From: a methanogenic archaeon ISO4-H5
Lineage (GTDB): Archaea > Thermoplasmatota > Thermoplasmata > Methanomassiliicoccales > Methanomethylophilaceae
Assembly (NCBI GenBank): GCA_001560915.1
Contig: CP014214.1
Location: forward strand, 1,240,001 to 1,304,000
Length of the DNA stretch: 64,000 nt
Direction of reading: 5' to 3'
Below the pieces are notes generated by a model. That model was not told the origin of the DNA and made no database searches. It saw only the letters and a list, made by a program, of their open reading frames with translations. Shown here one piece after another: positions 1,795 to 5,448 of this stretch. Position 1 is the stretch's first letter. Each line of letters opens with the position of its first letter. Both the position numbers and the translations under genes were made by a program.

Positions 1795-3162
1795 ATGAGG
1801 AAATCGATTGCAACAGGATTGGTTACTTTCATTCTACTCATTGCGATTCTGTTCATCTCCATCAACACAGTATTCTTTTCCGGGACCGAGGACCTCAGCA
1901 ACGTCCTGATGGGCAACATCATTTCCGATCTCATCAGCATCCTCCTCTGCATCATCATCTTCATGGTGGTTTTCCTCGATCTCAGAGATAACAGATCGAC
2001 ACGCATATTCCTGCTGCTCCTTTTCATCGAAACCGTCCTGCTGTTCGCAGACATCCATTGCTGGGTCTGGGACGGCGACCAGACTCTTGTCACCGCGGCA
2101 ATAGTGGCGAACATCGTTTCGTACCTGTGTGTCCTGCTGCTCCTCACTTTCTACTGGGCCCTCCTCCTGGAACTGTACAAACCCTTCCACAAGAGGATGG
2201 CGAAGTTCACCAAGGTGATCATAGCCCTGGCCGTTACCGACGTAATACTGATTGTCACCAATCCCCTGACCGGATTGTTCTTCGTGATGGACGGCAACGC
2301 ATTGTACGTCCGTTCCGACACCTTCCTGCTTTCACTGCTGGCACCCAACTTCATCGGACTGATAGAGGTGTACTGCATCCTGAAATTCGAGACCAAGAGC
2401 CGCCGCAAGATTGTGTTCATCGGGTACATCCTGTTCTCCTGGATCGCCATGTTCATCCAGCTGTTCAACTACGGAATCTCCCTGCAGTACGTCTCGTTCA
2501 TGTTCTCCTTCGTCCTGATGTACGCCAACATCTACCTTGACCGCGGCACGGAACTGATATTCAACGAGAGCAGGATGAACGAACAGAATGCTGCCATCAT
2601 GGTCTCCCAGATCCAGCCCCACTTCCTCTATAACTCCCTAACATCGATCATGAACATCAAAGGCAACCCCCCACAGACCAGGGATGCCATCGCGGAATTC
2701 GGAGGCTATCTCCGTGCCAACCTGGATTCCATGACCACCACCAATCCGATCCCCGTGCAGAGGGAGATCGAGCATGTCGAGAGCTACATCTACCTCAGGA
2801 AACTGAAATTCGGGGACCGTCTGAACATTATCTACAACATCGAGGACACATCATTCTTCCTGCCCCCGGAGACCATCAAGACCATCGTCAGTTCCGTCAT
2901 AGAATACAATCTGGTAAGGGACGAACAACCCCTCACTATCACCCTCTCCACGGAGAACACCGAGAAATATCACGTCGTCAGGATCTACAACGATTCCGTC
3001 ACTCCTCTGGCCCGCGGGTTCATCCGCGACAAGAACAACATCGAGATCGCGGCCATGGTTAACCGCCTCAATACCATGGTCGGAGGCACTCTGAAGAACA
3101 TAGAAGATTCCCGCGGGGGGAACACGGTGGAGATACGCATCCCGCACAGTTCGAGGTACTGA
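1795..3162 (+). CDS. LytS-type membrane histidine kinase homologue, His kept, ATP site lost
   Basis: A 455-residue protein with about seven hydrophobic segments in residues 8-250, followed by a cytoplasmic His_kinase (LytS/YehU-type) module. The phospho-acceptor box QIQPHFLYNSL is intact, with His276, and the following helix region (YLRANLDS, EIEHVESYIYLRKLKFGDRL) matches the family. The ATP-binding half is degenerate: the N box that should read VENAIKHG is VSSVIEYNL, and the glycine box DDGVGF is replaced by YNDSVTP. It should be able to accept phosphate but not to bind ATP well. The next gene starts 1 nt after its stop and shows the opposite defect, so the two probably form one heteromeric sensor. 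The signal is unknown, and no response regulator lies nearby. Confidence 0.85.
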   Translation: MRKSIATGLVTFILLIAILFISINTVFFSGTEDLSNVLMGNIISDLISILLCIIIFMVVFLDLRDNRSTRIFLLLLFIETVLLFADIHCWVWDGDQTLVTAAIVANIVSYLCVLLLLTFYWALLLELYKPFHKRMAKFTKVIIALAVTDVILIVTNPLTGLFFVMDGNALYVRSDTFLLSLLAPNFIGLIEVYCILKFETKSRRKIVFIGYILFSWIAMFIQLFNYGISLQYVSFMFSFVLMYANIYLDRGTELIFNESRMNEQNAAIMVSQIQPHFLYNSLTSIMNIKGNPPQTRDAIAEFGGYLRANLDSMTTTNPIPVQREIEHVESYIYLRKLKFGDRLNIIYNIEDTSFFLPPETIKTIVSSVIEYNLVRDEQPLTITLSTENTEKYHVVRIYNDSVTPLARGFIRDKNNIEIAAMVNRLNTMVGGTLKNIEDSRGGNTVEIRIPHSSRY

Positions 3163-3163
3163 G

Positions 3164-4543
3164 ATGTACAGCAGACTCTGGCATGCAATCTGTCTCCTTA
3201 TCATCGCGGGGATGTCCGTCATCACCCTGGTGAGCGCCGCCATCATAATGCCCTACGACAACTCGTGGGACCGCCAGGCCATCATCTTCCTCACGGGACT
3301 CATCATCGGCATGATCCTGTGCCTCATCCTCTTCGCGTCCGTGTACTTCGACAAAAAGATCAGTCTGGATATGCTGTTCTTCATGTGCCTGATCTCCATC
3401 GAGTTCCTGCTCCTTCAGATTGAATTCCAGCGTTACTACATAGAATGCACCGACCCTTCCAGCGACCTGATATGGCTCGCCTATCTCCTGGGCAACAGCG
3501 TGTTCCCGGTACTCGTCTGGGTCTTCGGAAACTACGAACGCATCGTGATGGGGGTCACCAAGGAGCAGTACCGCCCGTACTACATGGCGCTCAATATCCT
3601 GCTGATAACCATCACGGCCATGAACCTCCTGCAGGGAGCGACCAGCTGCCTGTTCACCATCGAGAACGGAGTGTATACGGTTACGGAACTGGATTACATA
3701 CATGATGCACTGACGATGCTCCAGGGCATCGTGTGTATCGTCCTCGCCCTGAGATACGGGGTCTCCATCATCCAGAAACTGATTTTCGTGACCTATCTCT
3801 CGATACCTCTGATCCTGCTCCTCACCCAGGTCCCGTCCTACAACCCCTCGCTCATGTATCTCACGAACCTGCTGATGTTCCTGTTCATGTACGGCTCTGT
3901 GTACATGTCGCGCGGTATCACCATCGCCCGCAACAAGGCGGAGATGACCAACCGCAAGATCGCCATGATGGTGTCCAGGATAGAACCCAATTTCCTCAAC
4001 GAGGCTCTCCAGTCGATCGAATCGATTGAGGGCAATCCTGAGGAGACCCGCAAGGCCCTGTCCATGTTCGCCAAGTATCTCCACGAGAACGTCAACACCA
4101 TATCCCAGATCAGACCAATCGCATTCTCGGACGAACTGGAACATGTCCTCATCTACACCTATCTGGAAAAACTCCGTTTCAAGGACCACATCAACGTGAT
4201 TTACGACATAAGGGCCGATAACTTCAGGATTCCAGCGATGACCGTTCAGATGATGGTGGAGAACGCCATCAAACACGGCATCACGCAGCGCGAGGAAGGC
4301 GGAACAGTCACTGTGACCTCGGAGGAACTTCCCGATGCGTTCCGTATAACCGTCGCGGACGACGGAGTGGGATTCGATGTGAATGCCCCCCGGGACCCCA
4401 ACCGCAGCCACATCGGACTAGAGAATCTGGAGGCCCGCCTGAAGAACACCCTGGGCGGTACCTTCGAGATATCCAGTACACCCGGCGTGGGAACGACGGC
4501 GGTCGTCACCATCCCCAAATCGGCCAACCGCTCCGATGCCTGA
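3164..4543 (+). CDS. LytS-type membrane histidine kinase homologue, ATP site kept, His replaced by Asn
   Basis: A 459-residue paralogue of the preceding gene, separated from it by 1 nt and so translationally coupled. It has the same layout: several membrane segments, then the His_kinase module. Here the acceptor box reads RIEPNFLNEAL, with Asn at residue 276, exactly the position of the His in its partner. The ATPase domain is complete: N box VENAIKHG (Asn367), G1 box ADDGVGFD, G2 region HIGLENLEARL. It should bind and hydrolyse ATP but cannot autophosphorylate on the usual His. The inference is trans-phosphorylation of His276 in the partner within a heterodimer. Confidence 0.87.
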   Translation: MYSRLWHAICLLIIAGMSVITLVSAAIIMPYDNSWDRQAIIFLTGLIIGMILCLILFASVYFDKKISLDMLFFMCLISIEFLLLQIEFQRYYIECTDPSSDLIWLAYLLGNSVFPVLVWVFGNYERIVMGVTKEQYRPYYMALNILLITITAMNLLQGATSCLFTIENGVYTVTELDYIHDALTMLQGIVCIVLALRYGVSIIQKLIFVTYLSIPLILLLTQVPSYNPSLMYLTNLLMFLFMYGSVYMSRGITIARNKAEMTNRKIAMMVSRIEPNFLNEALQSIESIEGNPEETRKALSMFAKYLHENVNTISQIRPIAFSDELEHVLIYTYLEKLRFKDHINVIYDIRADNFRIPAMTVQMMVENAIKHGITQREEGGTVTVTSEELPDAFRITVADDGVGFDVNAPRDPNRSHIGLENLEARLKNTLGGTFEISSTPGVGTTAVVTIPKSANRSDA

Positions 4544-4545
4544 GA

Positions 4546-5385
4546 TCAGACTTTCGGCGAGAGATAAGCCTTTATGAAATTCTGAATGCTGGTCAGCATG
4601 ACCTTGCTTGCCATCTTGGCCATGAATTTACGTCCGGAAGACACTGCCTGCGACATCTGGTATGCCTGAAGGAGGTGTCCGACGTAGACATCGGTCTTGT
4701 GGTCCAGCCAGTATTCCTCAATACGCTCGAGCTGGTCCGGAGGACAGGTCTCCACGGCGGTGGACATGGCTGCCACCAGTTCATCGACGAAGGTCTGGTC
4801 GGCATCCAGGAACTCGGCTTCCTTGGGTTCGCAGGTAAGTTTGAGCTCCTCCGCCACAGCCTTGAGCTTCCCGAAGAATCCGATGAAGATCGGAAGTTCC
4901 ACATATGCACGGAACGAGGTGATGCAGGTAGCCTTGTACAGAAGGTAGGTGATGATGCGGTTCACGGGAGCAGTCTCCTTCAGAAGACCCAAGCCCCTGT
5001 CGAAGATGGCGTTCACCATGAACTCGTCCTCACTCTCGGGAAGCTTGTCATTGACCGCGTTCAGGAATCCTGCCACAGATGTGAAATCCAGCTGGGCACC
5101 CGCGTCTATGCGCAGGTAGCATTTGGAAAGGCAGTCCGCCATGCGGTCGGCGAGGTCGGCCATGACGTTCTCGTCCTCCACCTTCTCCGCACATTCCTTG
5201 AGGTTCTTCACGCTGCTGTTGAGGTCGCCCTCCAACGCGAAGGCGCATCCGCGGATGAAAAGACCGTACCAGTTGTCAGCCTCTACCGAAAGTATCCTGT
5301 CGCCCAGTCTGTGCAGATCCTCTACGGATTGTTTAGCGAACAGGTCGTTTCCTTCCTGGATGAGTTCTTCTGTTACGGTTGCCAT
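4546..5385 (-). CDS. Hypothetical helical-repeat (TPR-like) protein
   Basis: A 279-residue soluble, acidic, helix-rich protein with no signal peptide or membrane segment. The N-terminal 100 residues read like tetratricopeptide helices (LHRLGDRILSVEADNWYGLF, then GDLNSSVKNLKECAEK). The rest is helical and unrecognised. Start at MATVTEELIQ: a TATA-like TTTTTATC at 5405-5413 lies about 26 nt upstream, which gives a leaderless start. It converges on the kinase pair, with only 2 nt between stop codons. No function can be assigned. Confidence 0.7.
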   Translation of the reverse strand: MATVTEELIQEGNDLFAKQSVEDLHRLGDRILSVEADNWYGLFIRGCAFALEGDLNSSVKNLKECAEKVEDENVMADLADRMADCLSKCYLRIDAGAQLDFTSVAGFLNAVNDKLPESEDEFMVNAIFDRGLGLLKETAPVNRIITYLLYKATCITSFRAYVELPIFIGFFGKLKAVAEELKLTCEPKEAEFLDADQTFVDELVAAMSTAVETCPPDQLERIEEYWLDHKTDVYVGHLLQAYQMSQAVSSGRKFMAKMASKVMLTSIQNFIKAYLSPKV

Positions 5386-5429
5386 GCGGGCCGAATCGGT
5401 TTTCTCGATAAAAATTCTTGTTGGAGAAG

Positions 5430-5448
5430 TCCCGGGCAATGCCCGGGA
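5430..5448 (-). terminator. Terminator of the UbiD-family gene
   Basis: A perfect 8-bp stem TCCCGGGC / GCCCGGGA with a 3-nt loop lies 8 nt past the stop of the minus-strand decarboxylase. On that strand it is followed by a run of five T residues. The T-rich stretch also holds the TATA box of the next minus-strand gene. Confidence 0.7.

Follow-up and report, generated by a model that had tools for sequence, protein, structure and literature searches.

The window analysed here comprises 64,000 nt of the genome of the methanogenic archaeon ISO4-H5, which consists of one contig of 1,937,883 bp, and spans positions 1240001 to 1304000 of that contig. As shown in Table 1, two adjacent genes of the window, A and B, encode membrane proteins resembling histidine kinases. 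A preliminary description, made from the sequence alone, had claimed two tandem open reading frames 1 nt apart with opposite lesions at residue 276, namely a His together with lost N and G boxes in A, and an Asn together with intact N and G boxes in B. The reading frames held exactly, and the opposite lesions held as well.

Table 1. Features of the A/B locus, in window positions.
Feature	Position	Strand	Description
Gene A	1795..3162	+	455 aa membrane histidine kinase-like protein; phosphoacceptor half, His276 intact, ATP site degenerate
A phosphoacceptor box QIQPHFLYN, intact	2608..2634	+	His276 codon 2620-2622
A N box IVSSVIEYN, degenerate (vs xVENAIKHG)	2884..2910	+	
A G1 box IYNDSVTP, degenerate (vs VADDGVGF)	2983..3006	+	
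A/B junction TGA-G-ATG, 1-nt gap	3160..3166	+	
Gene B	3164..4543	+	459 aa membrane histidine kinase-like protein; ATP-site half, Asn276 at His position
B phosphoacceptor box lost, EPNFL	3983..3997	+	Asn276 codon 3989-3991
B N box MVENAIKHG, intact	4253..4279	+	
B G1 box VADDGVGF, intact	4352..4375	+	

His276 of A is found in QIQPHFLYNSLTSI and Asn276 of B in RIEPNFLNEALQSI, and the two share not only the residue number but also the alignment column. The phosphoaccepting His within PHF(L/I/M)xN is present in A and absent from B (EPNFLNE), whereas an ATP site made up of N box, G1 and G2 is present in B and absent from A; each of these two requirements is satisfied by the pair only. With the His and the ATP site on separate partner proteins, A and B show the division of sites that marks a split kinase of the FasBC type; the heterodimer and the trans-phosphorylation that also belong to this type are inferred. 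The Pfam scan returned His_kinase (PF06580) alone for A (70.9 bits), with no match to HATPase_c, and both HATPase_c (43.7 bits) and His_kinase (PF06580, 42 bits) for B. Both proteins pass the PF06580 gathering score of 25.2 bits and are members of this family by domain score. The label LytS-type, used in the preliminary description, held only for the kinase domain (PF06580): the Pfam scan of A and B showed no LytS sensor domain and the regulator of this family is not LytTR, so membership of the LytS/LytTR group is not met. The same scan showed no CheA-specific domains (Hpt/P1, P3, CheW-like) in A or B, which therefore do not qualify as a split CheA.

The order of the tandem locus, purA–A–B–hypothetical–ubiD, was conserved wherever the contigs permit reading, and in the relatives L036 and L039 the stop codon of A and the start codon of B overlap. 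Because the genes overlap or sit 1 nt apart, coupled translation and a probably equal dosage of A and B (about 1:1) are suggested, without expression data. The gene between B and ubiD in tandem loci (window 4546-5439, minus strand) encodes a protein of 297 aa that matches no Pfam or NCBIfam family. A GC-rich hairpin between purA and A was considered as an operator and rejected. Since the hairpins of relatives differ there and one is followed by a T run, it is probably the purA terminator.

AlphaFold models of A and B, with mean pLDDT of 84.4 and 84.7, respectively, predicted one architecture for both: about eight membrane helices, the last of which continues into a long signalling helix, and a cytoplasmic part with a short DHp hairpin followed by the CA domain. 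The CA domain of A was predicted to retain the histidine kinase fold, with a helix in place of the ordinary lid loop seen in B. The closest solved structure to both proteins was the kinase domain of GanS (PDB 6swj/6swk), with target-normalised TM-scores of.73 for B and.70 for A; it belongs to the same family (PF06580 plus HATPase_c) but is complete.

A second pair of such genes, A' and B', was identified at 836.0–840.2 kb of the genome; these genes are convergent and show the same split. To follow the division of His and ATP site, 147 genomes of the order were searched, and strong relatives were found in five other members of the genus and one member of a sister genus. The counts below cover five tandem A, six tandem B, six convergent A' and six convergent B' genes and a third pair of genome G040, and refer to related sequences, not to independent events. 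In the six kinase-bearing genomes of the genus, the His was kept in 12 of 12 A-type genes and in none of the 13 B-type genes, which have N, R, A, T, E or Y there instead. The Asn of the N box was present in all 13 B-type genes and in 1 of 12 A-type genes. The division was the same in every tandem and convergent pair of these genomes, being partial in the convergent pair of G040. Tandem A genes showed mean pairwise identities of.89,.33 and.33 in the H box, N box and lid, respectively, and tandem B genes.59,.88 and.60; the corresponding values were.83,.33 and.28 for convergent A and.57,.85 and.53 for convergent B. Regional conservation is mirrored: the half conserved in A-type proteins is the half free in B-type proteins, and vice versa. 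Because five tandem A, six tandem B and six convergent pairs divide alike, with reversed conservation of the sites, the complementary lesions are not due to chance. The test proposed in the preliminary description, that homologous pairs keep the split between His and no His, was passed in every tandem locus found, and no pair was found with both members lacking the His or both lacking the ATP site, which would have refuted it.

Between the window species (G000) and its nearest relative (G045), dN/dS was.09 in the DHp and.33 in the CA domain of A, and.22 and.19, respectively, in B. All measured regions are under purifying selection, and given these values (.09–.33) neither gene is a pseudogene. 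A possible objection is that A is decaying, that B is a remnant without His, and that the complementarity reflects coincidental decay. A does lack an essential site, and in the assembly of G045 the A gene is split across reading frames. However, conservation contradicts this explanation, which we consider very unlikely: all tandem loci of divergent species keep the pair, dN/dS is below 0.35 in DHp and CA, the complementary sites are strongly conserved, and the split is repeated in the second pair.

Two second pairs depart from the general pattern. A' of G040 still has both sites complete and A' of G042 is decayed in part only, so not all second pairs have yet become strictly dependent on the partner. 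The third pair of G040 (L050:1080-5449, plus strand) is very divergent, and a separate copy of the regulator follows it; its A-type protein has no ATP site and its B-type protein has Glu at the His position. B' of G042 (L037:6538-7986, minus strand) contains an in-frame TAG where a conserved Tyr stands (HVDT-TAG-VSLEK). Pyrrolysine is used by this order. The TAG may be read through, and an assembly error or a broken gene is also possible.

A tree was built from the cytoplasmic part after deletion of the His, N, G1 and G2 columns. Archaeal kinases formed one group against the bacterial ones. The first to branch was the tandem pair of the sister genus (G074), both copies of which are complete and adjoined by a regulator, and the A-type genes grouped with one still-complete kinase of G040 (support 96/93). 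Because the tree places the complete G074 pair earliest and G040 kinases are still complete, the loss of the His in B probably preceded that of the ATP site in A, which occurred at least two times. AU tests (p of.34,.24 and.15) rejected neither order, that is, a split before or after duplication of the pair, and one or two losses of the His in B are both admissible. The stages of a stepwise history are all found in living relatives: both copies complete (G074), one complete A' (G040), and both broken.

Searches with PF06580, HATPase_c, HisKA and HATPase_c_2 identified four histidine kinases in the genome, namely A, B, A' and B', and detected no complete histidine kinase genome-wide. The other HATPase hits over the cut-off were rejected as histidine kinases and read as GyrB, TopoVI-B, Hsp90 and an Hsp90-like protein. 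Since no further histidine kinase was found, no single protein with both catalytic halves was detected. These results bear on a further alternative, according to which A and B are pseudokinases with a regulatory role, exerted through protein contacts as by RetS on GacS or by DivL, and exchange no phosphate. Pseudokinase forms of histidine kinases exist, as shown by a ChrS variant (PMC9491836), DivL is among the fold neighbours, and in several B proteins the His is replaced by Glu or Tyr, which might even be functional. Nevertheless, the genome has no detectable complete kinase for A and B to regulate, pure scaffolds need not retain both complementary catalytic sites, and the residue at the His position of B varies freely. 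We regard this alternative as unlikely.

The genome-wide search also showed one REC domain over the cut-off and with it one full regulator of the cognate family. This response regulator at 838 kb lies between A' and B', abutting B' and beside B' only, about 400 kb from the tandem pair, and consists of a REC domain and an OmpR-like winged helix (Trans_reg_C-like). The REC residues DD, D, T/S and K were conserved in 8 of 8 regulators aligned. The regulator was present in all six kinase-bearing genomes of the genus and absent from all eight without kinases, and the tandem pair co-occurred with the second pair and the regulator in 5 of 5 genomes. No strong regulator match was found in other genomes among 293 sampled from the phylum; the other kinase-bearing genomes of the genus are not among the sampled genomes listed. 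In convergent loci, the gene between A' and the regulator (L035:4388-5119, plus strand) has no Pfam or NCBIfam match and may be a component or a target of the system. A protein of 302 aa whose receiver-like domain is weak and partial (L053:1486-2391, plus strand; 22–35 bits in relatives) was found across the genus, including genomes that lack all of these kinases.

In 31 bacterial loci, mostly from gut Clostridia, all 32 kinases were complete, and a related regulator directly followed the kinase in 27. The bacterial search pattern contained ADDGVGFD, so the G1 box was selected for there and the His was not. The single-kinase loci of Clostridia, Gordonibacter and Treponema resemble A/B in kinase family (PF06580 plus HATPase_c) and in the related REC-winged-helix regulator adjoining, but their kinases carry the His and the ATP site in one protein. 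By analogy, these neighbours point to the missing output of A and B. The earlier statement that the output is unknown is superseded: the candidate is the only regulator of the genome over the cut-off, beside the second split pair, since its family follows the complete bacterial relatives of these kinases. The distance of about 400 kb counts against this assignment.

We propose that one membrane histidine kinase gave rise by gene duplication to A and B as the two halves of an obligate heterodimer. Within this heterodimer, B would use its CA domain to bind ATP and phosphorylate His276 of A in trans. A, as the sole half with the PHFLYN phosphotransfer box, would then transfer its phosphate onto the REC domain of the 838-kb winged-helix regulator, and the phosphorylated regulator would change transcription. 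We consider it likely that B phosphorylates A within an obligate heterodimer and that A feeds a regulator, although the dimer, the direction of phosphotransfer and the 838-kb regulator as target are all inferred, without biochemical, interaction or expression data. Obligatory trans-phosphorylation in a membrane heterodimer, as the preliminary description had claimed, is supported as the best reading, given that the genome searches yielded no complete histidine kinase; it remains an inference, with no dimer or phosphotransfer data. The equal dosage favoured by overlapping or nearly abutting genes and the histidine kinase fold still predicted for the CA domain of A support the heterodimer. Phosphorylation in trans is an assumption for this kinase family; if it were strictly cis, a simple heterodimer would be unable to phosphorylate A.

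The same residue pattern would result if B were the kinase for A without an A:B dimer, with A homodimers serving as a membrane phosphotransfer protein and B homodimers standing separate, following the logic of CheA3 and CheA4. The phosphorylation of the P1 domain of CheA3 by CheA4 (PMC3591291) and the well-conserved DHp of A favour this explanation. We consider it unlikely, as the two proteins are paralogues that share their membrane architecture and DHp, their genes are neighbours with a likely 1:1 dosage, and the CA domain of A is folded according to the model and under purifying selection.

Compatible with the heterodimer is a refinement in which A, A', B and B' are exchangeable, A:B' and A':B dimers would also feed the one regulator, and A/B would give the 838-kb system an additional sensor input. 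The single response regulator over the cut-off, its position beside B' only and its co-occurrence with both pairs speak for exchange, whereas A shares a locus with B, and A' with B', the sequences have diverged, and there are no interaction data; on balance we lean slightly against it. A bolder reading, to which we give slightly less than even odds, is that with no complete histidine kinase the whole two-component system consists of four half-kinases in two reciprocally split pairs, perhaps mixing into several heterodimeric receptors that all feed one regulator, and that it arose stepwise, one duplicate first losing its His and the other then losing its ATP site repeatedly and independently.

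Textbooks describe histidine kinases as homodimers. If the obligate A:B heterodimer is true, it would be a clean case of such a dimer arising by duplication and complementary loss, and two-component signalling in this organism could run without any complete kinase. The stages in living relatives (both complete, one broken, both broken) make the origin of an enzyme heteromer directly testable, and the pair offers a natural test of trans-phosphorylation, since phosphate on A must originate from another protein. No prior report on A and B was found in the literature searched, and the genome paper of ISO4-H5 (PMC5011839) does not mention histidine kinases.

Among known systems, GacS/RetS and ChrS/HrrS are similar in that histidine kinases heterodimerise, but these are complete kinases that also form homodimers, and the heterodimer is modulatory and dispensable for basic catalysis (PMC12189002, PMC9491836). 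In CheA3 and CheA4 of Rhodobacter sphaeroides, phosphoacceptor and ATP functions likewise reside on different proteins, and neither autophosphorylates alone; however, these are chemotaxis kinases split by whole-domain loss (PMC3591291), whereas A and B are paralogous membrane sensors in which every domain is retained and active-site residues have been lost. The closest system is FasB/FasC/FasA of Streptococcus pyogenes, with two adjacent membrane kinase-like proteins and one response regulator, for which mutants and two-hybrid assays led in 2025 to the proposal of a heterodimer that takes its His from one protein and its kinase activity from the other (PMC12675982). The two-hybrid assays showed a heterodimer and no homodimer; FasC gives the His (H246), its kinase domain being dispensable, and FasB gives the active kinase domain (PMC12675982). 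FasB differs from B in keeping its DHp histidines (H241 dispensable, H284 not tested there), whereas the His is gone from every B, and the Fas regulator is ComE-like, bacterial and encoded at the same locus (PMC12675982). On the other side, the ATP site is gone from nearly every A, and the archaeal host carries two such pairs per genome. Split kinases are thus already known, and by analogy A/B resembles FasBC in logic. New relative to FasBC are a genome in which no complete kinase was detected, at least two pairs per genome, an archaeal setting, the two-sided complementary loss at the level of residues, and the surviving intermediates.
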